45,017 bases of DNA from Lachnospiraceae bacterium (GTDB lineage: Bacteria > Bacillota > Clostridia > Lachnospirales > Lachnospiraceae): NCBI GenBank assembly GCA_017620155.1, contig JAFZQY010000123.1:1-45017 (forward strand), given 5' to 3'. Shown one piece after another: positions 5,063 through 19,763 of this stretch. Position 1 is the stretch's first letter. The number at the start of each line of letters is the position of its first letter. The position numbers and the translations under genes are program-made. Under the pieces are notes generated by a model that ran no database searches, had not been told where the DNA came from, and saw only the letters and a list, made by a program, of their open reading frames with translations.

Positions 5063-6363
5063 CAGTAGTATTTACGCTGCTCATGTTTGCTTTTCTATAT
5101 TCTCTGGTACATCTCTATAAACAGACCAGCGTACAAAAAAGGGATATCATCTATTATAATGATCTGCTCTACAAGATAGAGGCGGACTTATCGTCGGGCA
5201 GAGATGTTGATCTCATTGAAAATGAATATGGCTGCAAAATAATCTTTTCCAAAGAGATAAACGATCCCGAGCTTGTCGAAATGTATGCAAACGAGGCTTT
5301 TGTCCTGGACCTGGTGGTTGACGGCGAGTATATAGGCAAGGTGGCCTGGCTCGATAAACTTGAGGAATTCAATTTCTATGGCGGAGAATTCCTGTCGACA
5401 TCCCTGATCATATGGTTTGTTCTGCTTCTCATAGGATATGCCCTTTTCTATGTTATATATCTGGTCTATGTCAGGCCGGTAGATGATCTGAAGAACTTCT
5501 CTAAGGAACTTGCAAAAGGAAATCTGGACGCCAAACTTCCGATAAGACGCAACAACATGTTCGGCGGTTTCACAGAGGCCTTTGACATAATGAGAGAGGA
5601 GCTTAAGGCATCGCAGACCCGCCAGATGGAAGCCGAGATAGCCCGTAAGGAGCTTGTTGCATCTTTAAGCCATGATGTGAAGACTCCCGTAGCCGTTATA
5701 GATGCCACATGCGAAGTGCTGGGAGTAAAACTTAACCGCAAACTGAAGAACCTCACCGAATCGGACGAACCCGACTCTTCTGAGATTGATGAAGTTAAGG
5801 ATTCCCTCGATAAAGTGGAGATAATCTCAGCCAAAGCAGCGACTATTCAGACTCTTATGACGGATCTGATGCATTCCAATATGGAGAATTCCGAAAAAGT
5901 CGATGTAAATCCCATGGAAGATTTCGCGAGTCATATCGAGGATTACTTAAGCAGCATCAGCGGTTACGGACAGATAACTCTGAAAAATCATATATCCAAT
6001 TGTCTCATATATATGGACAGGAAGCGCATGGAACAGGTTCTGGACAATATCATAGGCAATTCCGTCAAATACGCCGGCACGCCTATCAGTGTGAGTTTTG
6101 ACGAGATAAATGACATGATGATGGCCGGCGGAAGGAAGGGAAGTTTTATCAGGATCAGGATCAAGGATTCCGGTCCCGGGGTCAGCGAAGAAGATCTGCC
6201 TTTAATCGCTCAGAAGTATTACCGCGGTACCAACACAGGCAGCCAGCCCGGATACGGCATGGGGCTTTATCTTGTTAAACTCTATATGCAAAAACAGGGC
6301 GGCGACATGGAATATTTCAATGACAACGGATTCGTAGTCGGTCTCATGCTCAGGAAAGTCTGA
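5044..6363 (+). CDS. Sensor histidine kinase
   Basis: Membrane-bound sensor kinase of 439 residues. Membrane segments lie at about 6-25 and 118-143 and enclose an extracytoplasmic sensor region of about 90 residues. A HAMP-like linker (VRPVDDLKNFSKELAKGNLD) follows, then the H-box SLSHDVKTPV with phosphoaccepting His210. The ATPase domain carries the N-box DNIIGNSVKYAG, the G1 box DSGPGVSEED and the G2 box GYGMGLYLVK. Between H-box and N-box is an acidic segment around 240-255. It begins inside the regulator gene, which implies translational coupling. The pair should sense a signal handled by the upstream exporter. Confidence 0.95.
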   Translation: MRIRKLAVVFTLLMFAFLYSLVHLYKQTSVQKRDIIYYNDLLYKIEADLSSGRDVDLIENEYGCKIIFSKEINDPELVEMYANEAFVLDLVVDGEYIGKVAWLDKLEEFNFYGGEFLSTSLIIWFVLLLIGYALFYVIYLVYVRPVDDLKNFSKELAKGNLDAKLPIRRNNMFGGFTEAFDIMREELKASQTRQMEAEIARKELVASLSHDVKTPVAVIDATCEVLGVKLNRKLKNLTESDEPDSSEIDEVKDSLDKVEIISAKAATIQTLMTDLMHSNMENSEKVDVNPMEDFASHIEDYLSSISGYGQITLKNHISNCLIYMDRKRMEQVLDNIIGNSVKYAGTPISVSFDEINDMMMAGGRKGSFIRIRIKDSGPGVSEEDLPLIAQKYYRGTNTGSQPGYGMGLYLVKLYMQKQGGDMEYFNDNGFVVGLMLRKV

Positions 6364-6377
6364 AAGATCCCAACACA

Positions 6378-6397
6378 AAATATTTTTAAAAATATTT
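6378..6397. repeat. Perfect 20-base AT palindrome after the kinase gene
   Basis: The 20 bases from 6378 to 6397 are their own reverse complement and contain only A and T (AAATATT arms around a central TTTAAA). It lies 14 bases after the histidine kinase stop and 12 bases before the -35 box of the gpx promoter. It could be a weak bidirectional terminator or an operator or UP-like element; the sequence alone does not decide. Confidence 0.45.
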
Positions 6398-6405
6398 GAT
6401 AAAAT

Positions 6406-6436
6406 ATAATTGACAAATATATATTGCGTCAAATAT
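6406..6436. promoter_or_regulatory. Inverted repeat over the gpx promoter, candidate OhrR operator
   Basis: Left arm ATAATTGAC (6406-6414) and right arm GTCAAATAT (6428-6436) are inverted copies with one mismatch, separated by 13 bases. The repeat overlaps the -35 box, fills the spacer and enters the -10 box, where a bound MarR-type dimer would block RNA polymerase. The second gene of the operon encodes an OhrR-like repressor, so autoregulation is the natural reading. The arms contain the AATTG core found in OhrR sites but are not an exact copy of the Bacillus site. Confidence 0.45.
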
Positions 6437-6439
6437 AAT
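6410..6439 (+). promoter_or_regulatory. Sigma-A promoter of the gpx-ohrR operon
   Basis: A -35 box TTGACA at 6410-6415 and a -10 box TATAAT at 6434-6439, both perfect to consensus, are separated by 18 bases. The gpx start codon follows at 6482 with AAGGAGG in front of it. This is the strongest promoter match on the left arm and fits a promoter that needs a repressor. Confidence 0.75.
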
Positions 6440-6481
6440 ATGACAAAAGAAAACAGCTGCATTCATTAAGGAGGTAAGAAT

Positions 6482-7027
6482 ATGAGCACATTTTATGATC
6501 AGAGCGTAGTAGCAGCAAACGGTGACGTAATCTCAATGAAAGAGTATGAGGGAAAGGTAGTTCTCGTAGTGAATACGGCTACCGGATGCGGTTTCACGCC
6601 TCATTACAAGGACATCGAAGAGATGTATGAGAAATTCCATGATCAGGGATTTGAGGTTATCGACGTTCCCTGCAACCAGTTCGCCGGCCAGACCCCCGGA
6701 ACCGATGAAGAGATTCATGAATTCTGCACGCTTAAATACAATACTCAGTTCCCGCAGATGAAGAAAGCCGATATCAACGGTGAGAATGCGATACCTCTTT
6801 TCACTTTTCTTAAAAGCCAGAAGGGCTTCGAAGGTTTCGGCAAAGGTCCCAAAGCAATGGCAATGAGCGCAATGCTGAAGAAGATAGATAAGGATTACAA
6901 GAACAATCCCGATATTAAGTGGAATTTCACCAAATTTGTGATCGATCGGACCGGAAATGTGGTTGCAAGATTTGAACCTACGGCTAAAATGGAAGATGTA
7001 GCCGATTGTGTAGCATCACTTATATGA
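6482..7027 (+). CDS. gpx: Glutathione peroxidase family protein (Cys type)
   Basis: Thiol peroxidase of 181 residues that reduces hydroperoxides in the cytoplasm, probably with thioredoxin as electron donor as for most bacterial Cys-type members. The catalytic tetrad is visible: Cys36 in TGCGFTP, Gln70 in CNQFAGQ, and Trp147 and Asn148 in KWNFTKFVI. Cys36 is a TGC codon, so this is not a selenoprotein. A second cysteine at 64 (DVPCNQ) is also conserved in the family. A strong AAGGAGG lies 8 bases before the ATG. The stop is 22 bases from the OhrR-like gene, and the two share one promoter. Confidence 0.95.
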   Translation: MSTFYDQSVVAANGDVISMKEYEGKVVLVVNTATGCGFTPHYKDIEEMYEKFHDQGFEVIDVPCNQFAGQTPGTDEEIHEFCTLKYNTQFPQMKKADINGENAIPLFTFLKSQKGFEGFGKGPKAMAMSAMLKKIDKDYKNNPDIKWNFTKFVIDRTGNVVARFEPTAKMEDVADCVASLI

Positions 7028-7049
7028 TTCTGCTTAATAAGGAGCAAAA

Positions 7050-7487
7050 ATGGCACAGACCTACGAACAGCTTAAACTCAAGAATCAATTGTGCTTTCCG
7101 TTATATGCATGTGCGCGTAAGATAACCAACGCGTACACGCCTTATCTGAAACCTCTGGGACTGACATACACCCAGTACATAGTATTTATGGTATTATGGG
7201 AAAAAGAAGAAGTGAATGTAGGCGAACTGGGTCGGACGCTCAAGCTCGACGCAGGTACGCTTACGCCGCTTCTTAAAAAGCTCGAGAAAGAAGGCTATGT
7301 TACCAGGAAACGATCCGAAGAAGATGAGCGGATCACATGTATCCGTCTTACCGAAAAAGGCGCAGCCCTTAAGGAAGAATGTAAGGATATCCCCGGAAAA
7401 GCAGCATCTGCTCTCGGCAATGTCAGCGAGGATGATATCAGGCAGCTCTACCGGATATTATACGAAATCATGGAGGAAGACAGATAA
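7050..7487 (+). CDS. ohrR: OhrR-like organic-peroxide-sensing MarR regulator
   Basis: Transcriptional repressor of 145 residues. The N-terminal NQLCFPLYACARK places the redox Cys at residue 15, as in Bacillus OhrR, and the winged-helix region (LDAGTLTPLLKKLEKEGYVTRKRSEEDER) is close to the OhrR subgroup of MarR proteins. In the family, oxidation of this Cys by organic hydroperoxides releases the protein from DNA. The usual target, an ohr gene, is absent here; the gene lies behind gpx and before a cation exporter, with a 1-base overlap to the latter. AAGGAG precedes the start. The subgroup is clear; the inducing peroxide is inferred. Confidence 0.9.
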   Translation: MAQTYEQLKLKNQLCFPLYACARKITNAYTPYLKPLGLTYTQYIVFMVLWEKEEVNVGELGRTLKLDAGTLTPLLKKLEKEGYVTRKRSEEDERITCIRLTEKGAALKEECKDIPGKAASALGNVSEDDIRQLYRILYEIMEEDR

Positions 7488-8626
7488 TGAACGTACCTAC
7501 TTCAGAGAACGAAAACAGAGAATCAGCCATAGTCAGGACATCCGTGATAGGTATAATCACAAACCTGCTTCTTGTCGCATTTAAAGCAACTGTAGGTATC
7601 ATCAGCAACTCCATTGCGATCGTCTTAGATGCAGTTAATAACCTGTCAGACGCCTTAAGCAGCGTCATCACGATCCTCGGTACCAAACTTGCCGGACGCG
7701 AAGCTGATAAAAAGCATCCTTTCGGATATGGCAGGATAGAATACCTCAGTTCTTTGGTGATCGCTCTGATCGTACTCTATGCGGGCGTTACATCACTAAT
7801 AGAATCCATAAAAAAGATAATCCACCCCGAAACTCCCGATTATTCTACCGCTTCATTGATAATCGTGAGCGTAGCGGTTCTGGTGAAGATCGTTCTGGGG
7901 CTTTATGTAAAAAAGACCGGAAATAAGGTTAATTCCGATTCACTTATCAATTCGGGCAAGGATGCTCTGCTTGATTCGGTCATCTCGGCAGCTACATTAA
8001 TTGCTGCACTCATCTTTATTTTCTCGGGAATATCTCTGGAGGCTTACTTAGGTGCAGTGATCTCACTGGTCATCATTAAGGCCGGATTCGACATGATATC
8101 CGAAACAGTATCCAAGCTTCTGGGGGAACCCGGCGATGCTAAGCTGATCCAGGACATCAAAGCAACTGTAAAAAGCTTCCCGCAGGTTCGCGGAGCCTAT
8201 GATCTGATACTTCACAATTACGGACCGGATAACTATAACGGATCTATTCACATAGAGATCGATGATACTCTGACGCCGAACGAGATAGACGGGCTTAGCC
8301 GCTCGATAATGGTTAAAGTATATAGCGAACTCCAGGTTATTCTGACTGCAATCGGCGTCTATTCCGTCAATACGCATGACCCGGAGATCATCTCGATGCA
8401 CGAAGAGATGAGAGACGTAGCATTGTCTCACCGGTATGTAAAACAGATTCACGGGTTCCATTACAGTAAGAGTGAGAATCTTGTCAGATTCGATCTTGTA
8501 GTAAGCTTTGATGCACCAAGCCGTCAGGCAGTATATAACGAAGTTCTTGATGATCTTTCGGCTAAGTATCCCGATCTCAGATTCTCACTTGCTATGGATA
8601 TGGATTTCGGTGAGATTATTAAATGA
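7487..8626 (+). CDS. Cation diffusion facilitator (CDF) family transporter
   Basis: Inner-membrane metal-cation/proton antiporter of 379 residues. The first 200 or so residues hold about six membrane helices; TM2 carries the metal site IVLDAVNNLSDALSS (D-x3-N-x2-D) and TM5 carries SGKDALLDSV. The family signature region ADKKHPFGYGRIEYL lies between helices 2 and 3. A cytoplasmic C-terminal domain of the ZT-dimer type follows, then an extension beyond about residue 300 that resembles a second such domain. The start overlaps the ohrR stop by one base, so it belongs to the peroxide operon. Export of Mn, Fe or Zn is possible; the ion cannot be told from sequence. Confidence 0.93.
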   Translation: MNVPTSENENRESAIVRTSVIGIITNLLLVAFKATVGIISNSIAIVLDAVNNLSDALSSVITILGTKLAGREADKKHPFGYGRIEYLSSLVIALIVLYAGVTSLIESIKKIIHPETPDYSTASLIIVSVAVLVKIVLGLYVKKTGNKVNSDSLINSGKDALLDSVISAATLIAALIFIFSGISLEAYLGAVISLVIIKAGFDMISETVSKLLGEPGDAKLIQDIKATVKSFPQVRGAYDLILHNYGPDNYNGSIHIEIDDTLTPNEIDGLSRSIMVKVYSELQVILTAIGVYSVNTHDPEIISMHEEMRDVALSHRYVKQIHGFHYSKSENLVRFDLVVSFDAPSRQAVYNEVLDDLSAKYPDLRFSLAMDMDFGEIIK

Positions 8627-9509
8627 TCATCTGAAAGAGACCTTTGGATGTAAGGTCTATAAGATAGCTTTAAACGGCGCGTTCACCTGCCCGAACCGGG
8701 ATGGCAGACTCGGTACGGGCGGGTGTATATTTTGTTCTGCGGGCGGAAGCGGAGAGTTTGCATCCGATCCCGCTTTATCTGTATATGAACAGATAGAAGA
8801 GGGCAAAGCGCTTCTCAAAGATAAGATAGGCGATAAGAAGTGCAAGTATATCGCCTATTTTCAGGCATATACGGGTACGTATGCTCCGATAGAGAAGCTT
8901 AGGGAACTATATACAGAGGCTGTGAATCATCCGGATATTGTCGCCCTGTCAGTCGCTACCAGGCCCGACTGCCTTCCGGATGAGGTTCTGGATCTTTTGT
9001 CTGAGATCAATGAGATCAAACCGGTATGGGTAGAGTTAGGGCTCCAGACCATACATAAGCGTTCTGCCGATTATATTCGCAGAGGATACGATCTGCCGGT
9101 TTATGATGAAGCGGTAGGAAAGCTCAGAGAACGCGGAATAGAAGTTATCACCCATGTGATCCTCGGGCTTTGCGGGGAATCGATCAGCGATATGACCGAA
9201 ACCGTCAGATATGTCTGCGTAAGCGGCGCATCAGGCATCAAGCTTCAGCTTTTGCATGTACTTAAAGGTACCGATCTGGCAAAAGAGTATGCCGAGGGCC
9301 GTATCAAGGTTCTTTCCGAAGACGAATATATCGAAATACTTAAGGAATGTGTTAAAATCATACCTGATGACATAGTTATACACAGGCTTACGGGAGACGG
9401 AGATAAGAAACTTCTGATCGCACCGCTATGGAGCGCAGATAAGAAGCATGTCCGGAACCGTATTCAGAAGGAAGTATTGTATGTTCAGGGACAGAAGGCA
9501 CGAGAGTAA
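8610..9509 (+). CDS. TIGR01212/YhcC-family radical SAM protein
   Basis: Radical S-adenosylmethionine protein of about 299 residues. The cluster motif is CPNRDGRLGTGGCIFC, with cysteines spaced 11 and 2 residues apart, typical of the TIGR01212 (YhcC) group; later motifs are ATRPDCLP, WVELGLQT and THVILGLCGE. A longer frame opens at 8508, but that part overlaps the CDF gene and has no family likeness. The family begins just before LNDHLKETFG, so a GTG at 8610 is chosen; it overlaps the CDF gene by 17 bases and lacks a good Shine-Dalgarno sequence. Members are thought to act in tRNA or small-molecule modification; the exact substrate is unknown. Confidence 0.85.
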   Translation: MRLLNDHLKETFGCKVYKIALNGAFTCPNRDGRLGTGGCIFCSAGGSGEFASDPALSVYEQIEEGKALLKDKIGDKKCKYIAYFQAYTGTYAPIEKLRELYTEAVNHPDIVALSVATRPDCLPDEVLDLLSEINEIKPVWVELGLQTIHKRSADYIRRGYDLPVYDEAVGKLRERGIEVITHVILGLCGESISDMTETVRYVCVSGASGIKLQLLHVLKGTDLAKEYAEGRIKVLSEDEYIEILKECVKIIPDDIVIHRLTGDGDKKLLIAPLWSADKKHVRNRIQKEVLYVQGQKARE

Positions 9510-10116
9510 TCCCAAACTCATAATCTTCATAATCGTTTTTGCGATCGCCGTCATTTTCAATGTTCTTTTAGTTATTCCCATCCTTGCTAAAAACTTTGAG
9601 CCTTGTTTCCCCGGGGCAGTCGGATACTTTTACAAGACCGATGTGGAAAACATGACAGGGCGAGTGCTTGAGTCCAAAGATGCGGAGTTTAACCGTATTT
9701 CTGCCACCAGGTGTTATTATTCCGGTGAAAAAGAGACCGAGTACGATCATCTGGATTACTATCTTTTTTCAAACGGAATAAAGGCACGCATGGCATTCAA
9801 TAAGCTGGGAAAAACCTACTTTGATCCGGCAACTGTCCGCAGAGGCGAAAACTGGATCACCGGCCGCGTATATTTTGAACCCGATGAATATGCTCTCGAT
9901 TATATGCCCGATACGATTTATGAATATTATTATATCTCCGGAAATATGATAGCCAAGGCATCGCTGATCATTCCCGCATCGCTTGATGCTGACGACAGAC
10001 ATGATTACAGAGAAGACATGAAACAGTTCGACAGATTGATCGAATGGATCCCCGAAGGAGTAGTATGGCATCCGTCATATTATTATTCCGAACATCCATA
10101 TCTGGACAATGAGTGA
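9481..10116 (+). CDS. Membrane-anchored protein of unknown function
   Basis: No family was recognised. The ATG at 9481 is preferred to the one at 9448 because AGAAGGAAG lies 6 bases in front of it. The 211-residue product has a short basic N-terminus, one hydrophobic segment (about residues 12-37) and then a Tyr/Asp-rich domain that should be outside the membrane, with repeated aromatic patches (CYYSGEKE, YEYYYISGN, HPSYYYSEHPY). The gene overlaps the radical SAM gene by 29 bases and hflX by 8 bases, so it is co-translated with housekeeping genes. It is probably a real gene given the clean frame and tight packing. Confidence 0.75.
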   Translation: MFRDRRHESNPKLIIFIIVFAIAVIFNVLLVIPILAKNFEPCFPGAVGYFYKTDVENMTGRVLESKDAEFNRISATRCYYSGEKETEYDHLDYYLFSNGIKARMAFNKLGKTYFDPATVRRGENWITGRVYFEPDEYALDYMPDTIYEYYYISGNMIAKASLIIPASLDADDRHDYREDMKQFDRLIEWIPEGVVWHPSYYYSEHPYLDNE

Positions 10117-11215
10117 AAAATATACAGAACAGGAAAAAGAAAAATACATACTCGTAGGAATCGCCGAGAAGGATGAAGAAGAGGCGTATTCTTCACTTGA
10201 TGAGCTTTCCGACCTGCTTGATACGGCCGGCGGAGAGGCTCTTTTTCAGTTTATCCAGAAAAGACAGCATCCCGATCCGGCCACATATATAGGCAAAGGA
10301 AAAGCAGAAGAGCTGCGCGAGCTTATAGATATGCATGAGGCGGACGGTATCATCTGTGATGATGAGCTGAGTCCCGCTCAGATAAGAAATCTGTCTCAGA
10401 TCCTTGATACCAAGGTCATCGACCGCACGATACTGATCCTCGATATATTCGCAGCGCATGCGATGACCAATGAAGGTAAGCTACAGGTTGAGATGGCCCA
10501 GCAGAAATACAGGCTTTCGCATCTTCAGGGCCTGGGTGTCAGCCTGTCGCGTCAGGGCGGCGGTATCGGAACCAGAGGTCCCGGCGAGACCAAGCTCGAA
10601 ACAGACAGAAGACGCATTAAGACGCGTATCGCATCGCTCAATAACCAGATACAGCATCTTAGCCGGATGCGTGAAAACACGCGAAAAAGAAGAGTAAACG
10701 GTACTACCCCGATAGCTGCTATCATAGGCTATACCAATGCCGGAAAATCCACTCTTTTAAACCGCCTGACCGAGGCCGAAGTGTATGCCGACGATAAGCT
10801 TTTTGCAACGCTTGATCCGACAACCAGGAAATGCAGGCTTCCTGACGGAACGCAGTATCTGCTGACGGATACGGTAGGATTCATCAACAAACTTCCACAT
10901 AATCTGATCGACGCCTTCAGAAGTACGCTGGAAGAAGCGAAGTACGCAGATATTTTGATACATGTCGTAGATGCTTCCGATCCCGCACGCGACATGCATA
11001 TCAAGATCGTATATGATACGTTGCGTGAGCTCGGCATTGAAGGTAAACCCATCGTGACCGTATTCAACAAAATGGATAAACTGCCTGCCGATCATAATGA
11101 AAAACTGTATGATACGCATGCCGATTCATGTATCCTTGCATCCGTAAAAAACGGAACCGGCCTTGATAAACTCTTCGAAGCCCTTGCTGACGCAACTATA
11201 GAGGGATACAGATAA
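10109..11215 (+). CDS. hflX: GTPase HflX
   Basis: Ribosome-associated GTPase of 368 residues; in studied bacteria HflX splits stalled or heat-damaged 70S ribosomes. The N-terminal domain includes ATYIGKGKAEEL near 58-69. The HflX-specific GGIGTRGPGETKLE is at 151-164, a coiled linker follows, and the GTPase core has G1 GYTNAGKST at 207-215, G3 DTVGF and G4 NKMD. The protein is shorter than many HflX proteins because the N- and C-terminal extensions are short, but the core is complete. It starts inside the preceding gene (8-base overlap). The next gene starts only 1 base after its stop yet has quite different base composition. Confidence 0.96.
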   Translation: MSEKYTEQEKEKYILVGIAEKDEEEAYSSLDELSDLLDTAGGEALFQFIQKRQHPDPATYIGKGKAEELRELIDMHEADGIICDDELSPAQIRNLSQILDTKVIDRTILILDIFAAHAMTNEGKLQVEMAQQKYRLSHLQGLGVSLSRQGGGIGTRGPGETKLETDRRRIKTRIASLNNQIQHLSRMRENTRKRRVNGTTPIAAIIGYTNAGKSTLLNRLTEAEVYADDKLFATLDPTTRKCRLPDGTQYLLTDTVGFINKLPHNLIDAFRSTLEEAKYADILIHVVDASDPARDMHIKIVYDTLRELGIEGKPIVTVFNKMDKLPADHNEKLYDTHADSCILASVKNGTGLDKLFEALADATIEGYR

Positions 11216-11216
11216 T

Positions 11217-12335
11217 ATGAAAAAATATGAATGGCTTGAACAAGAAACTAAGGATGAAGATATACATGTAAATCTTTCTTCATACTACGAAAGAATAAAG
11301 GATGATCCTCATTGGTTAAATAAGATTTTAGATAATTGGTCCAGCGTTGAATCATATGTTAATACATTATATGTACTGAAATTTGTCAAACGAATGACAA
11401 ATGCTGAAATAAGAAAATACACTAATCATATTGGCTTCCCGGATCTATATAAAAGACTGGGATGGTATTATAACTCTTTTGATTTATCGGAATGTGAGAA
11501 TCTCTTTAAGCAAGAATTAACTCGACTACAAGGAATTTTAGCAAAGTACCGTAAGGATCGTTATTGTAGCAATCCCGAAATAGCAAAACAATATGATATG
11601 ACAATAAGTTCGAAACAACAACTTAGGGACGCTACGATGAAAAGATTTAATGTGCAAAACATAGAAGAATTGTTTTACTTATTGCATTACTTATCAAAAG
11701 AAAACGATTTGACCACAGGAGAAATCGCATTACTGTATGATTGTACTACAGATTATGTAGCGGATCTCTTAAAGAAATGTCATTTAAGTGAGAGCAGAAT
11801 AGAGGCTCGCAGAAAAATAATAAGAAACAAACGAGGAAATTATACACAAGCCACAATAAGCAGAAAGAAAAAAAGCAGTATTGAATCGATAGAGCAGGGT
11901 GTAACCGGAAGTAATATGGAAGTTGTCCTTCGAAGACTTATAGATTCACTTCTTGGAACATATCTGGATATAAACGAATACATATGTTTGGTATGTTTAT
12001 CCACGACAAGTATTATTCCACCAATGGAGATAGATATCCCAATTATTATAATGAACAAGTCAAATAATTACTGTTATAAATATGCAGTTGAATTAGATGG
12101 GGAGATATGGCATACATCAGATGATTCCGAAGAGAATTCCGATATAAAAAAGGAAAACCAAATAAAAGAGATAGATTGGAAACTAATTAGAATCAGATTG
12201 TCATCTGAATCATCCAGCAAATCAAGCAAAATTATATCGATAATAGAATCAGCCGCTAATGAACTATGCCAGATAATCCAAAACGATATATCAAATGAAA
12301 ATGAGAAATGGATCACTAAGAGTCTTTACATATAA
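11217..12335 (+). CDS. AT-rich HTH-like protein with Vsr/PD-(D/E)XK-like C-terminus
   Basis: A 372-residue protein not recognised as a named family. Three segments look like helix-turn-helix units: about 59-82 (MTNAEIRKYT), 117-145 (NPEIAKQYDM) and 165-190 (TTGEIALLYDCTTDYVADLLKK). A basic stretch (about 195-220) follows. The C-terminus has the layout of Vsr/DUF559-like nucleases: Glu235 in a helix, MEIDIPI (271-276), AVELDGEIWH (290-299), Asp309-x-Lys311 and WKLIRIR (321-327). DNA cleavage or nicking is therefore an inference. The start has GAGGGA 10 bases upstream, inside hflX. The gene is far richer in A and T than hflX and uses ATA, TTA and AGA freely, which suggests transfer. It could be a homing-type nuclease, a defence protein or a repair protein. 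Confidence 0.75.
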   Translation: MKKYEWLEQETKDEDIHVNLSSYYERIKDDPHWLNKILDNWSSVESYVNTLYVLKFVKRMTNAEIRKYTNHIGFPDLYKRLGWYYNSFDLSECENLFKQELTRLQGILAKYRKDRYCSNPEIAKQYDMTISSKQQLRDATMKRFNVQNIEELFYLLHYLSKENDLTTGEIALLYDCTTDYVADLLKKCHLSESRIEARRKIIRNKRGNYTQATISRKKKSSIESIEQGVTGSNMEVVLRRLIDSLLGTYLDINEYICLVCLSTTSIIPPMEIDIPIIIMNKSNNYCYKYAVELDGEIWHTSDDSEENSDIKKENQIKEIDWKLIRIRLSSESSSKSSKIISIIESAANELCQIIQNDISNENEKWITKSLYI

Positions 12336-12423
12336 AAATGTATTCTTACAGGTAAACTGCAAAGGAAACAATGCTAAAAGACGTAAAGGATATGATAGCA
12401 GCAGAGGATTTTGAAAAATAAGT

Positions 12424-12457
12424 ATCTAGCCGATAAATATCAGTTTTTCGGCTAGAT
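12424..12457. other. Inverted repeat upstream of the xer gene, candidate dif_SL-like site
   Basis: Ten-base perfect arms, ATCTAGCCGA (12424-12433) and TCGGCTAGAT (12448-12457), flank a 14-base AT-rich centre. The repeat lies about 100 bases before a XerS-like recombinase gene, the arrangement known for dif_SL beside xerS in streptococci and lactococci. There is no T-run after either arm, so an intrinsic terminator fits less well. It also lies within about 1.2 kb of the point where all genes switch strand. Site identity is inferred, not shown. Confidence 0.45.
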
Positions 12458-12508
12458 TAGCCCATAAATAGTGGCGAGAGTGGTTTCGAACCTCTAAATA
12501 TGGTATAT

Positions 12509-12514
12509 TATAAT
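12509..12514 (+). promoter_or_regulatory. Likely -10 box of the xer-like gene
   Basis: A consensus TATAAT stands 39 bases before the chosen ATG at 12554, which leaves room for a short leader with AGGA at 12541-12544. It is the centre of a small palindrome (GTATAT, TATAAT, ATATAC; 12503-12520). Only a poor -35 match (TTCGAA at 12485-12490, spacer 18) is visible. Confidence 0.4.
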
Positions 12515-12553
12515 ATATACGTTTTCATTGATTTTCTTGCAGGAATATACATT

Positions 12554-13615
12554 ATGGGAAAAGATTCCGAATACTACAAAAACAAAAACCGCTCTATCAA
12601 GATCAAACTTCAGGAACTCCTTATGGAGCTTCCTCAGCCTGCACGTGATTATATATATGAAAAACAGATTTCGTCACAACCGAGTACCCTGGTTGCATAC
12701 TCGCTTGACCTGCTTGTGTTTTTTCGATTTTTAAAGGACCGTAACCCATATTTCCGCGATAAAGAGATCTCAAAAATCAATATAGACGATCTTTCTAATC
12801 TGACCAGTGAAGACATTGTCGAATATCAAAGGTACCTTGAGTTCAATATGATCGGTGAACAACACGAAAACGGCAAAAAAGCGATTGCCCGTAAAATGAG
12901 TCCATTACGTGGAATGTTCAAATATCAGGTTGAACACGAATATCTTGAGAAAGATCCAATGACTCTGGTCAAATTACCGCGTATAAAAAAGGACAAAAAC
13001 ATCGTCCGTATGGACAATTATGAGGTCCGAGCCATATTAAACGCCATCGAATATGGTAATTCGCAGATGTCTGACAGGCAGCTTACATATTGTTCTAAAA
13101 CACGTGAACGAGACCTGGCGATCCTTACGCTGATGCTTAATACCGGCATTCGTGTTTCCGAATGTGCCGGCTTGGATGTCGGCGACGTTGATATGATTGT
13201 GAATTCTTTAACAATAGTTCGAAAAGGCGGAGCTCAGGATATTATTTACTTTGGTGACGAGGTAAATAACGCCTTAAAAACGTATATAGAAGGTTGGCGT
13301 AGTACGATCGTTCCTGAATCCGGACACGAAAAAGCACTCTTCTATTCGTTAGAAAACAGAAGAATAAGTATCTCAGCCATAGAGAGGCTTGTCAAGAAAT
13401 ACGCAAAAATGGTCGTTCCGAACAAAAAAATTACTCCGCATAAGCTGCGGAGCACTTACGGCACTGCCCTATACCGTGAAACAGGCGATATAAGGCTTGT
13501 AGCGGACGTTCTCGGACACGAAAACGTCAATACCACCATTGATTACTATGCTGCCATCGATGACGAGCATAAACGTCTGGCGGCCGGTGCCGTTGATTTC
13601 AAGAAAAATGATTAA
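12554..13615 (+). CDS. XerS-like tyrosine recombinase
   Basis: Site-specific recombinase of 353 residues from the ATG at 12554, which has AGGA 9 bases in front; the upstream ATG at 12500 adds a hydrophobic leader that lies inside the promoter. An N-terminal SAM-like core-binding domain (about 20-145) is followed by the catalytic domain with Arg200 (NTGIRVSE), Lys224 (VRKGG), His296 and Arg299 (TPHKLR), His322 (LGHEN) and the Tyr331/Tyr332 pair. The RERDLAIL stretch and the length match the single-recombinase XerS of streptococci more than XerC/XerD or phage integrases. The likely role is resolution of chromosome dimers at a nearby dif_SL-like site. It is the last + gene before the strand switch. 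Confidence 0.85.
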   Translation: MGKDSEYYKNKNRSIKIKLQELLMELPQPARDYIYEKQISSQPSTLVAYSLDLLVFFRFLKDRNPYFRDKEISKINIDDLSNLTSEDIVEYQRYLEFNMIGEQHENGKKAIARKMSPLRGMFKYQVEHEYLEKDPMTLVKLPRIKKDKNIVRMDNYEVRAILNAIEYGNSQMSDRQLTYCSKTRERDLAILTLMLNTGIRVSECAGLDVGDVDMIVNSLTIVRKGGAQDIIYFGDEVNNALKTYIEGWRSTIVPESGHEKALFYSLENRRISISAIERLVKKYAKMVVPNKKITPHKLRSTYGTALYRETGDIRLVADVLGHENVNTTIDYYAAIDDEHKRLAAGAVDFKKND

Positions 13616-13636: not shown

Positions 13637-13651
13637 TGACCAGGCTGGTCA
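13637..13651. terminator. Hairpin between the convergent genes
   Basis: TGACC and GGTCA form a 5-base stem around AGGCT between the xer-like gene (stop at 13615) and the kinase-like gene that ends at 13649. Transcription from both sides meets here. A TTTTT run begins at 13660 on the + side, but it is not adjacent to the stem, so the element is a weak terminator candidate. Confidence 0.3.
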
Positions 13652-14284
13652 CTGTTGACTTTTTCGGTCAAATTCCTCTACATACTTTGCGATAAGCTCT
13701 GCAGTTCCGTCCAGACCAAGTACGGAGCTGTTTATTGTCATATCATATGTCGAAGCATGTCCCCATTTTCCTGATGCATAGTAATTATAATAGCTCTGTC
13801 TCTGTTTATCCTTCTTATTCATCATATCACGGGCTTTGGAATCACTCGTAATATCGGGATGACGCTCTTTGATCCTCCCTATCCTGCATTCCTCGTTGGC
13901 GCTGATAAAGAGGTTGAGCACATTATTTCTTTCAGAAAGTGCATAATCGGCGCATCTTCCGACTATAACACAGGGACCTTCATCTGCGATCTTTTTGATC
14001 GTATCAAACTGAGCCAGGAATATCTTATGGCTTATGGGCATATCTATATATGACGATGAGTTATATCCGAACGAATAAGTGTCCATTACCAGATTATAGA
14101 GAAAAGAGCTTGTCGGACGCTCGTCATTGCTCTCAATGATCTCCTGGCAGAAGCCCGAGTCTTTGGCAACTCTGTTGATCAGTTCCTTATCATAATATGG
14201 TATATCGAAATGCGCCGCGAGTTTTTCACCGATCTCACGACCGCCGGATCCGAATTGTCTTCCTATGGTAATAACTGTATTCAT
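13649..14284 (-). CDS. Cytidylate kinase-like family protein
   Basis: A P-loop kinase-like protein of 211 residues, similar to the cytidylate kinase-like family common in Clostridia and distinct from Cmk. The N-terminus has TIGRQFGSGGREIGEKLA (P-loop), then YYDKELI, a VGRCADYAL motif and an Arg-rich lid RIGRIKERHPD. Its substrate has not been established in the family. The ATG at 14284 is chosen because AAAGGAGTG lies 7 bases upstream; a GTG at 14314 would overlap the rluD-like gene by 4 bases but has no such site. It is the last gene of the right arm before the strand switch. Confidence 0.88.
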   Translation of the reverse strand: MNTVITIGRQFGSGGREIGEKLAAHFDIPYYDKELINRVAKDSGFCQEIIESNDERPTSSFLYNLVMDTYSFGYNSSSYIDMPISHKIFLAQFDTIKKIADEGPCVIVGRCADYALSERNNVLNLFISANEECRIGRIKERHPDITSDSKARDMMNKKDKQRQSYYNYYASGKWGHASTYDMTINSSVLGLDGTAELIAKYVEEFDRKSQQ

Positions 14285-14310
14285 GGACAACACTCCTTTC
14301 TTAAGAGAAA

Positions 14311-15243
14311 TCACAATATTGTCAGCAGTTTTTCGTAATACTCAGGTAACGGTGCGGTAAACTCCATATATTCACCCGTAGAAGGATGATCAAAACCGAT
14401 TATATATGCGTGCAGACATTGGCCTTCCAATTTCATCGGCGGCTTCATGCCGAGGTCATGTCCGTATAGCGGATCACCGAGTACGGGATGATGAATATGG
14501 TTCATGTGAACCCTGATCTGATGCGTCCGTCCGGTTTCAAGCCTGCATTCAACCTCTGTATGGTTCTTAAACCGCTGAAGGACCTTCACGTGTGTGACAG
14601 CGGATTTACCGTGCATGTCATCCGTGACCGCGAATTTCATCCTGTCACGCGGATCCCTGCCTATATAACCGGATATGGTCAGTTCATTCTCATCGATAAC
14701 GCCGCAAACGATCGCACGGTACGAGCGCTTGATGCTGTGAACCTTAAGCTGTTCGGCTATGGCTGCGTGAGCTTTATCGTTCTTACATACGACAAGCGAG
14801 CCTGTCGTATCTTTATCTATACGATGAACAATACCTGGGCGAATAACACCGTTAATTCCCGAAAGTGTATCGTTGCAATAATATACGAGTGCATTGACCA
14901 GTGTATCGTTGTAATGACCCGGTGCGGGATGCACGACCATATTCTTGGGTTTATTTACTATAATTATATCATCATCTTCATAAATTATTTCAAGAGGATG
15001 ATCCCAGGGTTCAATATCGGGGATCTCGCTTTCCGGTATGGTCATCTCTATAGATGTACCGGCTACGATCCTGTATGAATTCTTGGTGATGACCTTACCG
15101 TCTATGGTCACCTTTCCGTCAGTTATGAGAGCCTGCAGATAGTTGCGTGAGTATCCCGGATGGATATTCGCAATCCATTTATCCAGACGCTCACCGTCAT
15201 CTTCCTCGTCCACTATATCAAAAAACACTTTTTCGTCATTCAT
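14311..15243 (-). CDS. rluD: RluD-family 23S rRNA pseudouridine synthase
   Basis: RNA pseudouridine synthase of 310 residues. The N-terminal S4 RNA-binding domain (ERLDKWIANIHPGYSRNYLQ) is followed by the RluA-type catalytic domain, with the active-site Asp in GIVHRIDKDTTG and the motifs RTHQIRVHM and PVLGDPLYG. The start at 15243 overlaps the lspA stop by 8 bases, the usual lspA-rluD coupling in Firmicutes; a longer frame to 15297 runs inside lspA and has no family likeness. Modification of helix 69 of 23S rRNA is the family role; RluC/RluD specificity is not certain from sequence. Confidence 0.93.
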   Translation of the reverse strand: MNDEKVFFDIVDEEDDGERLDKWIANIHPGYSRNYLQALITDGKVTIDGKVITKNSYRIVAGTSIEMTIPESEIPDIEPWDHPLEIIYEDDDIIIVNKPKNMVVHPAPGHYNDTLVNALVYYCNDTLSGINGVIRPGIVHRIDKDTTGSLVVCKNDKAHAAIAEQLKVHSIKRSYRAIVCGVIDENELTISGYIGRDPRDRMKFAVTDDMHGKSAVTHVKVLQRFKNHTEVECRLETGRTHQIRVHMNHIHHPVLGDPLYGHDLGMKPPMKLEGQCLHAYIIGFDHPSTGEYMEFTAPLPEYYEKLLTIL

Positions 15244-15940
15244 TTTCTGATTTGGGTTCGGTGTCGGTGGCAGTTTCCGACTTCTGATCAGTTTCACCAG
15301 GTTTCGTTTCTTCGACGGGATCTTCCTTTTTATCAGCCTCTGCGGCAGGTTCTGCTTTCTTTTCTTCTACAGTTTCTGCGGCTTCCTGTTCTATGGCGGA
15401 AGCAGCATTCTTATCTTCAAATGTTCTGTAGCCTCTGGTCCTGAAGCTTAGGAACCTAAGGTCGTTGTCTTTATATACAAAAAGCAGGACCAGAACAAGA
15501 ATGATCGTCGCACAGGTAACATATATGTCGGCAACATTGAATATGGGGAAATTGATCGCCTTTACATATATGAAGTCTACAACATAGTTAAGACTTAATC
15601 TGTCTATCATGTTGCCGATGGCGCCTGCGGCTATGAAAGTAAGAAGAACATGCAGTATTACATATTTCTTCGATGCAGGGGCCTTTATAAGCATATACAC
15701 GATGCATCCTAAGATGACGATCGCAACGAAAATAAAGAATATCTTCTGATTCTGCATCATTCCGAAGGCTGCACCGCGATTTTCAAGATAATTAAGTTCA
15801 AGAATCCCGGAAATCAGAGGTATGGCAGGCTTATCTTTAAGCGCAACAACAGCCCATGCCTTGGTATACTGATCGGCTACGATCAGCAGACACATGAATA
15901 CAAAGTCCAATATAAGGTTAAGGGCGGGCTTTTTAGTCAT
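15236..15940 (-). CDS. lspA: Signal peptidase II with acidic C-terminal tail
   Basis: Membrane aspartyl protease that removes lipoprotein signal peptides. Four membrane segments lie in the first 160 residues or so, with the family motifs NRGAAFGM, GNMIDRLSLNYVVDFI (first catalytic Asp) and FNVADIYV (second Asp). The core is complete. After about residue 170 the protein carries an extra hydrophilic tail of about 60 residues made mostly of Glu, Lys, Ala, Thr and Asp; ordinary LspA proteins are 150-170 residues long and lack it. The gene overlaps aroB by one base and rluD by 8. Substrates in this window would include the lipoproteins at 39549 and perhaps 20291. Confidence 0.94.
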   Translation of the reverse strand: MTKKPALNLILDFVFMCLLIVADQYTKAWAVVALKDKPAIPLISGILELNYLENRGAAFGMMQNQKIFFIFVAIVILGCIVYMLIKAPASKKYVILHVLLTFIAAGAIGNMIDRLSLNYVVDFIYVKAINFPIFNVADIYVTCATIILVLVLLFVYKDNDLRFLSFRTRGYRTFEDKNAASAIEQEAAETVEEKKAEPAAEADKKEDPVEETKPGETDQKSETATDTEPKSENE

Positions 15941-17055
15941 CAGTCATCCTCATTCCATATAATATGTTTCACAGCCCCGATTATATCCTCATCGGTAACC
16001 GTCTCATCTATGATAGCCGAGCCTATGCGGTTAAGCAATATAAAGCGTATATGACCGGCTTTCATTTTTTTATCCGATTTGGTTAGCTCAAGGATCTCCT
16101 CGGGATCTATATCTTCTATAGAGATAGGCAGGTTAAACGGTACGAACATGTCGCGGATCTCGTAGAATTCCTCCATGGAGATCAGCTTATGCTGCCATGA
16201 TATGTATGCGGCGGCCACAGCACCGAGAGCTACACACTCGCCGTGAAGCATCTGAAAATCGCGTGATTTCTCGATCGCATGTCCGATAGTATGTCCGAAA
16301 TTAAGCAGCGCACGTTCTCCCTGTTCGGTAGGATCGTTATCGACGACTTTGCCCTTGATCAGGCAGTTATTGTAGACCATGACCTTCAGGGTTTCATATT
16401 CGCGGTCACTGATCTCATACATATTGTCGATAAGCCATGTATAGAATTTATCGTCCTTGATGAGACCGTGCTTCATGACTTCCGCAAATCCCGAATAGAA
16501 CTGTCTGTCGCTTAAGGTCTTAAGTACGCTTAAGTTCATATATACAAGGCGCGGCATGTAAAAAGCACCGACCATGTTCTTATATCCGTCAAAATCTACG
16601 CCTGTCTTGCCACCTATCGAAGAATCGCATTGTGCGAGAAGTGTCGTAGGAACCTGGATAAAATCGACTCCGCGAAGATATGTGGCCGCAGTGTAACCGG
16701 TAATATCACCGACCACGCCGCCACCGAGGGCGATGAGCAGGTCTTTTCTGTCAAATCCGTTCTCTATGAGATGCTTATAGATAGCTTTAACGGTATCCAG
16801 ATTCTTGTGCTCTTCACCGGCGGGTATCAAGCATATGCACACGGTATCGCACATTTTTTCCAGTACTTCTTTGACCTTGTCGCCATACAGAGGTCCTACA
16901 TCGGAATCCGTGACGATGCACATACGGGCATACGACCTGCCTAGATTCCCGATCTCTGTACCGAGAGTCTCGAACGAGTCCGAATAAACTATATCGTATA
17001 TGGGCTCTCCGCCCTTTTTTATCGTCAGTCTGTCGTCTTTAACGAATTTGACCAT
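15940..17055 (-). CDS. aroB: 3-dehydroquinate synthase
   Basis: Shikimate-pathway enzyme that converts DAHP to 3-dehydroquinate, using NAD and a divalent metal. The 371-residue protein shows the NAD-binding GGGVVGDITGYTAATY, the active-site QVPTTLLAQCDSSIGGKTGVD, the metal ligands in EVMKHGLI and in LLNFGHTIGHAIE, and HGECVALG. Length is normal. It overlaps lspA by one base, so the two are coupled. It follows a terminator behind sepF, with about 10 bases between that T-tract and the ATG, so it may depend on read-through or on a promoter overlapping the hairpin. It feeds chorismate to the trp genes on the same arm. Confidence 0.96.
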   Translation of the reverse strand: MVKFVKDDRLTIKKGGEPIYDIVYSDSFETLGTEIGNLGRSYARMCIVTDSDVGPLYGDKVKEVLEKMCDTVCICLIPAGEEHKNLDTVKAIYKHLIENGFDRKDLLIALGGGVVGDITGYTAATYLRGVDFIQVPTTLLAQCDSSIGGKTGVDFDGYKNMVGAFYMPRLVYMNLSVLKTLSDRQFYSGFAEVMKHGLIKDDKFYTWLIDNMYEISDREYETLKVMVYNNCLIKGKVVDNDPTEQGERALLNFGHTIGHAIEKSRDFQMLHGECVALGAVAAAYISWQHKLISMEEFYEIRDMFVPFNLPISIEDIDPEEILELTKSDKKMKAGHIRFILLNRIGSAIIDETVTDEDIIGAVKHIIWNEDD

Positions 17056-17065
17056 TGTCTATCCT

Positions 17066-17100
17066 CAAAAAAGAAAGCCTCCCTTATACAAGGAAGGCTT
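17066..17100 (-). terminator. Intrinsic terminator after sepF
   Basis: Arms at 17075-17085 and 17090-17100 form an 11-base stem with one mismatch and a 4-base loop. On the minus strand the stem is followed by CTTTTTTG (17073-17066). It begins 11 bases after the sepF stop and should end the yggS-sepF transcript just before aroB. Confidence 0.8.
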
Positions 17101-17110
17101 AGTGCTATAG

Positions 17111-17599
17111 TTATCTGCTGATCTCTACGTCAAGCGTTCCACTGATAAGATCCTGGAAATCACCGGAGATGTCTACGCTCGGAGGCGTAATGAGGAAGAT
17201 ATAATGTGATATCTTCTGAAGATTTCCGCTCATAGCAAAGCATGAACCGGATGCAAAATCGATGATACGCTGGGCAATTCCGACATCAAGGCCTTCAAGA
17301 TTAAGAACTACGGTACGATTGGCGAGCAGGGTCTCTGTAATCTCTCTGGCATCTTCGAACATTGTGGGCTTAACCACAACAACTTCCATACCATTTCCCA
17401 TTGTTCTCTTATTACCTCTCGAAATACGCGGTATACGTTTGGCAACGGTTTCAGAATCATCGGAATCATCAGATTCCTTAGAAGCGGGTTTCTTGAATAA
17501 CGGTTCGGGTTCATCCAAATATCCGTCATCATCGTCGTAGAACTCATCGTCCCCGCCGTCTATCTGAAAAATTCCTTTCATCTTATCCCTTACAGACAT
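17111..17599 (-). CDS. sepF: Cell division protein SepF
   Basis: Cytoplasmic FtsZ-binding protein of 162 residues. The N-terminal amphipathic stretch MSVRDKMKGIF is the usual membrane anchor; an Asp-rich linker (about 15-60) leads to the C-terminal SepF fold, with VVVVKPTMFEDAREI, NRTVVLNLEGLD and the RIIDFASGSCFAMSG motif typical of the family. It helps align FtsZ filaments at the septum and tethers them to the membrane. It follows yggS after 15 bases, a conserved pairing in Firmicutes. A terminator lies directly behind it. Confidence 0.95.
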   Translation of the reverse strand: MSVRDKMKGIFQIDGGDDEFYDDDDGYLDEPEPLFKKPASKESDDSDDSETVAKRIPRISRGNKRTMGNGMEVVVVKPTMFEDAREITETLLANRTVVLNLEGLDVGIAQRIIDFASGSCFAMSGNLQKISHYIFLITPPSVDISGDFQDLISGTLDVEISR

Positions 17600-17614
17600 T
17601 AGTTCAAACCTCCA

Positions 17615-18334
17615 TTAATTGGTTACTGAATAATCACGTTCTCCGAAGATCCCGGTACCCACACGGACCATTGTGGCCCCCTCTTCTGCGGCTACCTGAT
17701 AATCTCCTGTCATCCCCATAGACAATTCAATTTTATCTAACGGATGCCCACTATTATCATTATCCTTGTTTTGCCTAATTATGTCAACAGATAACTGACG
17801 CAAAACCACAAAATATTGACGATTTGTCTCCGGGTCTACTGTATATGGTGCTACGGTCATGAGACCGCATACTTCTATGCCGGGTAACGAGGCCGCATGC
17901 TCATAAAGTGCGCGTACTTCTTCGGAATCAGTGCCGAACTTGCTCTCTTCTTCGGCAACATTGACTTCCAGAAGTATCTTCGCCGTAACACCGTGCTTAA
18001 CAGCCTCTTTTGATATCACATCCGCAAGTTTGATGCTGTCTACGCTGTGTATCATATATACTTTATCAATGATGTATTTAACCTTGTTAGTCTGCAGATG
18101 GCCTATCATGTGCCAGCGGATATCACCGGGAAGTTTGTCGTACTTATCCATGATCTCCTGGACTTTGTTCTCGCCGAAATCGCGGCATCCGGCATCATAA
18201 GCCTCCTGAAGCGCTGATACGGGTTTCGTCTTGCTTACGGCGATAATGGTGACATCAGACGCGTTTCTACCTGCTCTTTCGCATGCCGCATTTATATTTT
18301 CTTCTACCTGAGCGATGTTAGCTGCTATATCCAT
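17615..18334 (-). CDS. YggS/PLPBP family pyridoxal-phosphate-binding protein
   Basis: PLP homeostasis protein of 239 residues with the single-domain alanine-racemase-like fold. The PLP lysine is in IIAVSKTKPV near residue 35. FGENKVQE, WHMIGHLQTNKVK, HSVDS, LLEVNVAEEESKFG, GLMTVAPY and LSMGMTGDYQVA are the family's conserved blocks, and the C-terminus has RVGTGIFGERDY. Homologues bind PLP and protect amino-acid and vitamin B6 balance without a known reaction. It lies between a HlyD-like gene (1-base overlap) and sepF, the standard division cluster location. Confidence 0.95.
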   Translation of the reverse strand: MDIAANIAQVEENINAACERAGRNASDVTIIAVSKTKPVSALQEAYDAGCRDFGENKVQEIMDKYDKLPGDIRWHMIGHLQTNKVKYIIDKVYMIHSVDSIKLADVISKEAVKHGVTAKILLEVNVAEEESKFGTDSEEVRALYEHAASLPGIEVCGLMTVAPYTVDPETNRQYFVVLRQLSVDIIRQNKDNDNSGHPLDKIELSMGMTGDYQVAAEEGATMVRVGTGIFGERDYSVTN

Positions 18335-19722
18335 TATTCGTACAACCTTTCTCCGTCCAGGACCGTACTTGAATCCAGGACTATATAATCGTATTCGTTC
18401 AGACCGTATTGGGTATTCGGCCGGACTATCGAGTAGTCTTCGTTTGAATACAGGATATTGATCTCCTTAAACTCGGCATAACCTTTATTGATGTTATATA
18501 CACCCTGAAGAGTTCCTGTCAGTCTGATCGTGTAGGTCTCATCGGAATCCGGTTTATAGATGATGTCGCCGTTTCTGAGTTCCAGGTTATCCAGATAATA
18601 TTCGTCTTCGGTTTCGGAATAAATGGATGTTTCAATGAATTCCACGGTCGAATTACCCTCATCATCGTGAGAATCCCTCATTACGCCGAGTTTCCCCGAA
18701 GAGCCTACGGTAACATACTCTTTGGGAACGATATAGAAATCTTTGTTCGCAATGGATGAATTCGGGATCTTAAGTCCGGAGGCGTTATCAAGAAGAAGTT
18801 CTATATTGATAAAACGGTCCATCGCAAAAGTTATCATCGAATTGGTAAAGGACAGGCCTATGAAATAATTACCGTCCTCATCGACGTGTTCGCTCACAGA
18901 TGCCCAGGAAGTATACTGGTTTCTGCTGAATCTGACCTCAACATACTCCATCTCCATCAGTAAACCGGCAGTATCGGGATCGACTTCTATGACGATCATC
19001 CAGTCTTCATTGGTACACAATTTGTATATCGTATCACCGTCGGCTACCAGATTGTTGGCAGCCATCTGGGTATATTCATATTCGGCCTGGTCGAAATCAC
19101 CTTCCGTGATGTCTTCAAGCTTCTTTTCTTCAAATCCGTCGATAGTATATAATACAACGCCTGCATTCGGAGCATAACGATAATGAACAAAAGACGAATT
19201 TGCATTAGAAAGATCCGAAACGGAAGTCAGGATATCATAATTGGTAAGTTCGATAGCCTTGGAAGCGATAGAATTCTTGAATCTGTAAACCTCTGAAAAC
19301 CCCGATTCTTTGAACGCAGCGGAAAAACCGCTTATCTCAGTCCTAAGGCGAGCCAGATCCGCATCGGACATGGAATTTTCTTCGGTAATGCTATCTGCGG
19401 ATTCGGACAAGCGTCCGGTCTCATCGATGGTGTAAACAAGATCGCCTACAGCCACATGCTGACCGTCTCTGACATAATAATTGATATAGCCAGAGTCTGC
19501 CGCTGTCACAAGCTGCTCGTCTCTGATGGCAATACCTGTATAAAGGCTGTTCTTATAAAGAGAGCCCTTGCGTACTTCATAGGGGGATATATGCTTGGTG
19601 TTCAGATATCCTGATATGGCCACGATAAGCTCGATCAGAATAAAGCCAAAGATCAATATACCGACATTGATCCCTCTCGGTTTTCGATATTTAACTATAT
19701 TGGTGGAATCAGAACCTGCCAT
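18334..19722 (-). CDS. HlyD-like membrane-anchored protein of the yggS-sepF cluster
   Basis: A protein of about 462 residues with one N-terminal membrane segment (about residues 22-40) and a large extracytoplasmic part. The early part SGYINYYVRDGQHVAVGDLVYTID reads as a lipoyl/HlyD half-motif, and a KIPNSSIANKDFYIVPKEYV stretch resembles the C-terminal barrel of adaptors. No ABC partner lies next to it. Related proteins occur upstream of yggS-sepF in Lachnospiraceae, as recalled from gene order. The ATG at 19722 is chosen over a TTG at 19734; neither has a visible Shine-Dalgarno sequence, and a terminator lies only 42 bases upstream. Function is unknown. Confidence 0.8.
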   Translation of the reverse strand: MAGSDSTNIVKYRKPRGINVGILIFGFILIELIVAISGYLNTKHISPYEVRKGSLYKNSLYTGIAIRDEQLVTAADSGYINYYVRDGQHVAVGDLVYTIDETGRLSESADSITEENSMSDADLARLRTEISGFSAAFKESGFSEVYRFKNSIASKAIELTNYDILTSVSDLSNANSSFVHYRYAPNAGVVLYTIDGFEEKKLEDITEGDFDQAEYEYTQMAANNLVADGDTIYKLCTNEDWMIVIEVDPDTAGLLMEMEYVEVRFSRNQYTSWASVSEHVDEDGNYFIGLSFTNSMITFAMDRFINIELLLDNASGLKIPNSSIANKDFYIVPKEYVTVGSSGKLGVMRDSHDDEGNSTVEFIETSIYSETEDEYYLDNLELRNGDIIYKPDSDETYTIRLTGTLQGVYNINKGYAEFKEINILYSNEDYSIVRPNTQYGLNEYDYIVLDSSTVLDGERLYE

Positions 19723-19763
19723 ATCGAAAAGCAAATAATAAACAAATCAAAAAATCAAATAAA

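Follow-up and report, generated by a model that had tools for sequence, protein, structure and literature searches.

A Candidate dif Site beside a XerS-like Recombinase Gene at the Predicted Replication Terminus of a Lachnospiraceae Genome

The Inverted Repeat and the Adjoining xer Gene

The window, that is the whole 45,017-nucleotide stretch of DNA analyzed here, comes from a Lachnospiraceae draft genome that is 88.6% complete and 6.6% contaminated; its features are collected in Table 1. Between two genes on the + strand lies a 34-bp inverted repeat, ATCTAGCCGA-TAAATATCAGTTTT-TCGGCTAGAT, which occupies exactly positions 12424-12457 and whose middle part, TAAATATCAGTTTT, is 14 nt long. The 10-bp arms are perfect, as claimed in a preliminary description of this DNA, and when one mismatch is allowed they become 14-bp arms around a 6-nt center. 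The repeat is also unique: its pattern, with up to 3 arm mismatches, gave one match in the window and none in 100 shuffles, and a degenerate pattern with up to 3 mismatches gave a single match in the 2.84-Mb draft assembly and none in the reversed control. The site is intergenic, about 30 bp in length and composed of inverted repeats around a short center, which is the layout of a dif-type site. The gene preceding it (11217-12335) showed a weak, below-cut-off match to the restriction-endonuclease-like domain MTES_1575.

Table 1. Positions of the features in the window, with the basis of each assignment.
Feature	Coordinates	Strand	Basis
Left replichore end: positive GC skew, + strand coding	1..13615	+	Skew profile, gene strands
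Candidate dif-type site, 34 bp	12424..12457		Repeat sequence, uniqueness, similar sites near xer orthologues
Putative left recombinase arm, ATCTAGCCGATAAA	12424..12437		Inner AAA in 117/117 collected distinct sites; binding predicted
6-nt central region, TATCAG	12438..12443		Strand exchange proposed by analogy with the center common to full and partial copies (L331, L274)
Putative right recombinase arm, TTTTTCGGCTAGAT	12444..12457		Inner TTT in 117/117 collected sites; binding predicted
xer, XerS-like tyrosine recombinase, 353 aa from ATG 12554	12554..13615	+	Longest ORF from 12500 = 371 aa
Right replichore end: negative GC skew, mostly - strand coding	13649..45017	-	Skew profile, gene strands

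Translation of xer probably starts at the ATG at 12554 (MGKDS...), since in relatives the match frequently sets in only around residue 15-19 of the longest ORF and a ATGGGAAAAGA start is found in two loci (L020 and L057). With this start 96 bases lie between the repeat and the gene, in keeping with the distance first reported. The protein contains a Phage_integrase domain over cut-off, and alignment to XerD (1a0p) places R218, K242, H314, R317, H340 and Y349 or Y350 (371-aa numbering) at the R-K-H-R-H-Y positions of XerD that we take to be catalytic, so that the residue set of the tyrosine recombinases is present.

Among the NCBIfam models XerS (NF003462) ranked first with 194.5 bits, which is under its curated cut-off of 267 bits, followed by XerC (155) and XerD (144). 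A 37-row tree, composed without chromosomal streptococcal XerS, XerH and XerL and carrying a program warning that long branches meet, gathered the clostridial proteins in one clade (97/88) and four annotated plasmid-borne XerS proteins of Bacilli in another (100/98); these two clades and a Butyrivibrio plasmid Xer join at 92/86, apart from XerD. The earlier designation of the recombinase as XerS-like therefore stands as regards the best-matching family, but neither the score nor the clade supports membership in XerS, and the data suggest a protein of a clostridial clade beside the Bacilli XerS rather than XerS proper. Plasmid pCY360 of Butyrivibrio proteoclasticus B316 (L430) is a large plasmid with its own divergent Xer, and no symmetric site over shuffles was detected within 1.5 kb of that gene. 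In two unannotated human faecal phage records (MT835478 and MT835555; L432 and L433) a Xer of 45-46% identity, either host DNA or phage-borne, is accompanied by a dif-type site.

Terminus Position, Copy Number and Conservation of the Site

GC skew in the window is +0.062 to the left of the site and -0.065 to its right, coding shifts from the + to mostly the - strand, and the cumulative skew reaches its maximum at 13302. The same change was observed in all 16 relatives sampled on both sides (G046, G062, G178, G185, G024, G058, G177, G190, G193 and seven others), in flanks taken to a length of up to 20 kb left and right (4.5 kb on the right side of G058): skew turns from positive to negative at the site and coding from mostly + to mostly -. 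In five of these genomes xer is distant from the site, by about 28 kb (G024), 13 kb (G058 and G177), 10 kb (G190) and 19 kb (G193), and the skew still flips at the site, which indicates that the switch is tied to the site rather than to xer. Seven further sites lie in shorter stretches, and six of them coincide with a flip, the exception being that of G013, where an element is inserted. These six include two with scant left flanks, namely 1.2 kb at the second site of G122 (C103:1209-1242), where the 20 kb to the right gives a weak skew of -0.018, and 0.14 kb in G168. As for second copies, the one on C51 of G076 shows the flip and the one on C6 of G133 does not.

Over a whole chromosome (G191; 20 sampled 20-kb segments), skew was positive in 10 of the 11 segments between the origin and the site, and 8 of the 9 segments beyond it were negative, with exceptions at 1.02 Mb, where coding is reversed too, and at 3.1 Mb. 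Eight assemblies hold dnaA and the site on one contig, and in six the site lies at 0.47-0.49 of the circle from dnaA (G191, 0.482; G085, 0.488; G035, 0.485; G102, 0.478 of the largest contig; G046, 0.473; G185, 0.472). Assembly faults are suspected behind the two misfits, which are G178 (0.336) and G062 (0.27 of a 1.49-Mb contig, with skew negative over most sampled points).

An orthologue of Xer was identified in 182 of 200 genomes of the family (159 of the 164 of good quality), with a single match in 175 of the 182, while 18 genomes had none at 1e-30. Its neighbors include, among others, a GTPase, a pseudouridine synthase and a 3-dehydroquinate synthase. A sample of the class gave Xer matches at E 1e-45 in 32 of 196 genomes, from 15 families, and none at that level in 164; two near-complete genomes of one genus of the same family (G225 and G379) had no match at 1e-45 in this sample.

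The preliminary description had further supposed that a lineage with such a site would use one recombinase in place of XerC and XerD. This is too simple: the source genome encodes a XerD over cut-off (351 bits) on another contig (C123, locus L001:1462-2382), with a counterpart of 348 bits in its genus mate G041, and a XerA-type recombinase, likewise over cut-off (239.6 bits), on C62 (L003:1027-2010). The XerA-type gene is situated among HsdS-like genes, one of them in the opposite orientation (HsdS being judged by eye), and is possibly part of an invertible type I restriction specificity locus. On the other hand, XerC over cut-off was found in 0 of the 200 family genomes (92 of them had no match to the XerC model at 1e-60), and a search for canonical dif at 3 mismatches or fewer gave no match in 12 XerD-bearing genomes; that search used one consensus (from B. 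subtilis), which a diverged canonical dif may escape. XerD over cut-off is patchy, being present in 74 of the 200 genomes, and from these counts nearly every member of the family has the XerS-like protein as its Xer, to which XerD is a patchy addition. XerCD-based models predicted dif for 97 of 100 Firmicutes according to PMC3025954.

With an iterated profile, 136 of 190 loci showed a site that outscored every shuffle in the roughly 0.7 kb ahead of xer, so that the expectation of a site kept upstream of xer orthologues was borne out. The 136 sites came from 76 of the 80 named loci, these being the top 80 among 246, and from 28 of 30 and 32 of 80 loci taken from the genome search; some species may be represented in both collections. 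This upstream scan took in 110 of the 182 orthologue-bearing family genomes. The first iteration gave 117 of 190 and later ones 136-143, and the last (136) was used. Sites close to the gene are typically found some 60-80 bp ahead of the position where the Xer alignment starts, with medians of 62-78 in the three sets.

By the first profile method 54 of the 190 loci had no site over threshold, and three of them (L102, L152 and L185) carry below-threshold yet strongly symmetric repeats with the same core. When several kb around 20 of the 54 misses were scanned, 11 scored at least 15, while none of 100 shuffles went beyond 13; ten of the 11 recovered sites lie about 0.8-1.5 kb upstream of xer, and the site of L223 is doubtful because it falls just downstream of xer and lacks both CGs. 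The other nine stayed below 15 in the stretch scanned, G183 having 14. For the remaining eight, a site was found farther away on the contig of xer in G058, G084, G096, G171 and G193, on a contig other than that of xer in G013 and G037, and with none of the search patterns in G054.

Across the class, 17 of 29 loci (own locus excluded, from the 32 genomes with a Xer match) have repeats scoring at least 14, compared with 0 of 116 shuffles, and 13 of the 17 possess both AAA and TTT. The repeat at L407, which has no core and sits beside the end of xer, may be a terminator. Three loci of one family of the class (L409, L410 and L414) carry a symmetric repeat with GCGC-type arms and no AAA/TTT core about 1.4 kb upstream of xer, perhaps the dif version of that family.

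The two arms vary together. In 117 distinct sites, drawn from the 136 over threshold and 13 added by hand, arm positions 7/28 and 8/27 are complementary in 77% and 75% of cases, with several base pairs used, as against 35% and 40% when partners were dealt at random (relatedness being uncontrolled). These sites were chosen by the profile or by the AAA/TTT core, and the conservation of AAA, TTT and CG is for that reason partly a product of selection.

Copy number and INDEPENDENCE from xer were determined with three patterns over the same 200 family genomes, all with reversed controls of 0. The first pattern matched 31 genomes at one copy each (one of them, G133, shows a second copy by the third pattern), the second matched 8 genomes, 7 with a single copy and G122 with two, and the third matched 70, of which 66 have a single copy and four (G076, G112, G133 and G154) a pair; the two contigs that carry the sites of G154 each carry xer as well. 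Allowing for G093 and G133, which were counted twice, a site match was obtained in 108 of 200 genomes, the source genome included, and the remaining ones would have either site versions missed by the patterns or none. The earlier prediction of one site per chromosome thus agrees with the single copy in the draft genome and with mostly one copy in the matching family genomes.

Site-Flanked Elements and the Interpretation of the Repeat

Several mobile elements appear to have used such sites. In a viral contig which, judging from its IMG number, is presumably isolate-derived (L331, 2360-8588), a full site stands beside a xerS-like gene and a copy of the left arm and center lies 6.2 kb away, the stretch between the copies encoding a replication protein of the type known from filamentous phages (PF23343, 9.7e-14) and a product that matches the Zot family weakly, under the cut-off. 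The same arrangement of a full and a partial copy spans 5.75 kb in L274 (1991-7743), again with a xerS-like gene beside the full copy, and the element there encodes a Zot-family ATPase (6.5e-16) and a Rep_trans protein. Full and partial copies have the same 6-bp center in both cases, as would be expected of strand exchange by Xer. In G013 a full site is found at the end of a PF23343-type Rep gene on one contig and a degraded copy beside xer on another (L251:11641, L252:12708), and the two are probably the ends of one insertion. All three elements look like products of IMEX-type integration with strand exchange in the center.

Sites of this type also occur in many viral contigs. The exact palindrome CTATTCG..AAA......TTT..CGAATAG was present in at least 120 viral contigs (IMG/VR, L271-L390), with a reversed control of 0; in 107 of 120 contigs scanned, of at least 120 matching, it lies outside ORFs of 70 aa or more, and most flanking bases that the pattern leaves free are AA/TT. 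Tailed phages appear to account for many of the contigs, since their widely common proteins resemble terminases and portals (by eye, from clusters). The site in such contigs would be either attP or the resolution site of a plasmid-prophage, and the Bacillus plasmid prophages with XerS-like genes described in PMC8026635 are a possible parallel. Six viral contigs (L391-L396), two of which (L392 and L395) have several genes in common, carry the left arm and center of a Pseudobutyrivibrio-type site followed by unrelated sequence, as expected of a half-site attP mimic. Viral scans with two other versions of the site returned no matches.

Taken together, the usual single copy per genome, the switch of GC skew at the terminus and the intergenic, symmetric repeat are what is found at a chromosomal dif, and we consider it very probable from the sequence data that the repeat is a dif site at the replication terminus, served by one tyrosine recombinase, the product of the neighboring gene. 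The preliminary description, which had proposed a dimer-resolution site beside a Xer of the single type, is upheld in this respect by the flip of skew and coding, the copy number and the conservation near orthologues. In the proposed mechanism one Xer protein would bind both near-identical arms; when homologous recombination has produced a chromosome dimer, its two dif copies would pair at the division septum, probably under the control of FtsK, whose gamma domain is encoded in the source genome. Each Xer would then cleave next to the 6-bp center, strands would be exchanged there, and the dimer would be converted into two monomers. That one protein reads both arms is the simplest reading, because the arms change together and pairing within an RNA is excluded by the inverted and displaced sites of relatives.

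The stable RNA fold of the repeat (z -3.1, with 2 of 200 shuffles folding equally well) and its position between two + strand genes would suit either a terminator for the gene upstream or a regulatory RNA structure within the xer leader. This reading is nonetheless highly improbable. No terminator-like site was found at 12200-12700, in line with the earlier remark that the lack of an adjacent T-run speaks against a terminator, and the skew flip stays with the site. Some relatives have the site kilobases from xer or opposite to it in orientation (11 of 136 matches), with asymmetric versions inverted relative to xer in G027, G093 and G102, and these inversions exclude a leader or terminator role as a general explanation; the terminator and the RNA element were rejected on orientation, distance and the lack of a terminator-like site. 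An operator through which xer regulates itself, in place of a recombination site, would account for the usual position of the repeat shortly before the start of Xer and for symmetric arms that suit a dimeric repressor, and we judge it very unlikely given that the site is about 10-28 kb from xer in the five genomes named above and on a different contig in G013, that the L331 and L274 elements are flanked by full and partial copies that share a center, and that most genomes contain a single copy. Autoregulation as a secondary role would be compatible with a dif function.

The repeat might also belong to a resident mobile element that brings its own Xer and uses the site for attachment or resolution, instead of to a housekeeping system. 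Xer-like genes do occur on plasmids and phages, and dif-like motifs in many viral contigs. We nevertheless give this explanation hardly any weight, because the Xer gene is nearly universal in the good-quality genomes of the family, is mostly single and stands among neighbors such as the GTPase, and because the L331 and L274 elements adjoin the Xer gene rather than carry it.

With a dif site and its recombinase as the preferred reading, a wider picture can be drawn tentatively, and we regard it as possible rather than probable: the Lachnospiraceae in general, and at least 14 other clostridial families, would have a single-Xer system in which arms that change in concert form a lineage-specific landing code, and filamentous phages and many apparently tailed phages would carry host-matched whole or half mimics of dif, used either in lysogeny driven by Xer or to resolve the dimers of plasmid-like prophages. 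Lachnospiraceae are abundant in the mammalian gut and the rumen. If true, a large lineage with a single-recombinase system would be added beside XerS, XerH, XerA and XerL. The site would provide a terminus marker for draft genomes of the family and, in commensals, a candidate place at which genetic tools might be integrated, and it could explain how some Lachnospiraceae phages integrate without an integrase of their own.

Comparison with Known Xer/dif Systems

No description of a clostridial single-Xer system, and no paper naming XerS and Lachnospiraceae together, was found among the papers listed in the literature searches (titles and starts of abstracts); since most subscription journals and preprints lay outside this search, such silence is no proof of novelty.

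With canonical dif/XerCD the present system shares the terminus position, one copy, the palindromic site and a tyrosine recombinase, and it differs in that the canonical system has two recombinases. PMC5357621 and PMC2731167 describe dif_SL/XerS of streptococci and lactococci as a single Xer of about 355 aa adjoining an inverted-repeat site at the terminus. That arrangement is shared, XerS is the best NCBIfam match, and here too the site adjoins the gene, though not in every relative. Unlike dif_SL, which according to PMC5357621 is 31 bp long and has an 11-bp central region between imperfect arms that differ in size, the site in the window has 34 bp, symmetric arms and a 6-nt center, and the Xer differs from XerS in its score below the cut-off and its separate clade. 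The likeness of a CCGA...TTTTTC part to dif_SL, noted at the outset, did not hold. One window arm fits the first of the dif_SL halves quoted in PMC5357621 (TTTCCGAAAA and TTTTCTTGAAA) at 8 of 10 bases by eye, and relatives do not keep these bases. An IMG/VR search with the two halves as quoted there returned 12 contigs, none convincing. Four plasmid-borne xerS genes of Bacilli showed no AAA/TTT-core repeat over shuffles: a weak repeat starts 89 bp before that of an S. salivarius plasmid (score 12, shuffles up to 13), and an E. hirae plasmid has two perfect 14-bp repeats without the core (score 14, shuffles up to 12).

With difH/XerH of Helicobacter and Campylobacter, as described in PMC2731167, the system has in common a single longer Xer, a site often beside the gene, and an A-run and T-run around a short center. 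Ungapped comparison of the window site with difH sites (PMC2731167) gave 15-17 identities in 34, values matched by 136, 332 and 551 of 1000 shuffles for the three difH sites listed out of eight compared, and when five sites were compared with difH the lowest shuffle count among those listed was 89 of 1000. Similarity to difH is thus no better than that of shuffles, and the likeness to dif_SL and difH appears to be one of layout, not demonstrated homology.

The dif/XerL system of the Legionellales, found through a mobile element that mimics dif according to PMC9765430, offers a further parallel in its single recombinase, its long uninterrupted inverted repeats and its dif-mimicking element. It differs in belonging to an unrelated host lineage and in the distance of over 400 kb that separates xerL and dif in L. 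pneumophila (PMC9765430), whereas here gene and site are usually neighbors. Filamentous phages of the CTXphi type integrate at XerCD dif as IMEX (PMC5357621), and the L331 and L274 elements resemble them as inovirus-like elements at dif that leave one full and one partial copy, and differ from them in the XerS-like gene beside the full copy. Taken together, these comparisons identify the system as a variant of the single-recombinase dif/Xer type, and not as XerS/dif_SL proper.
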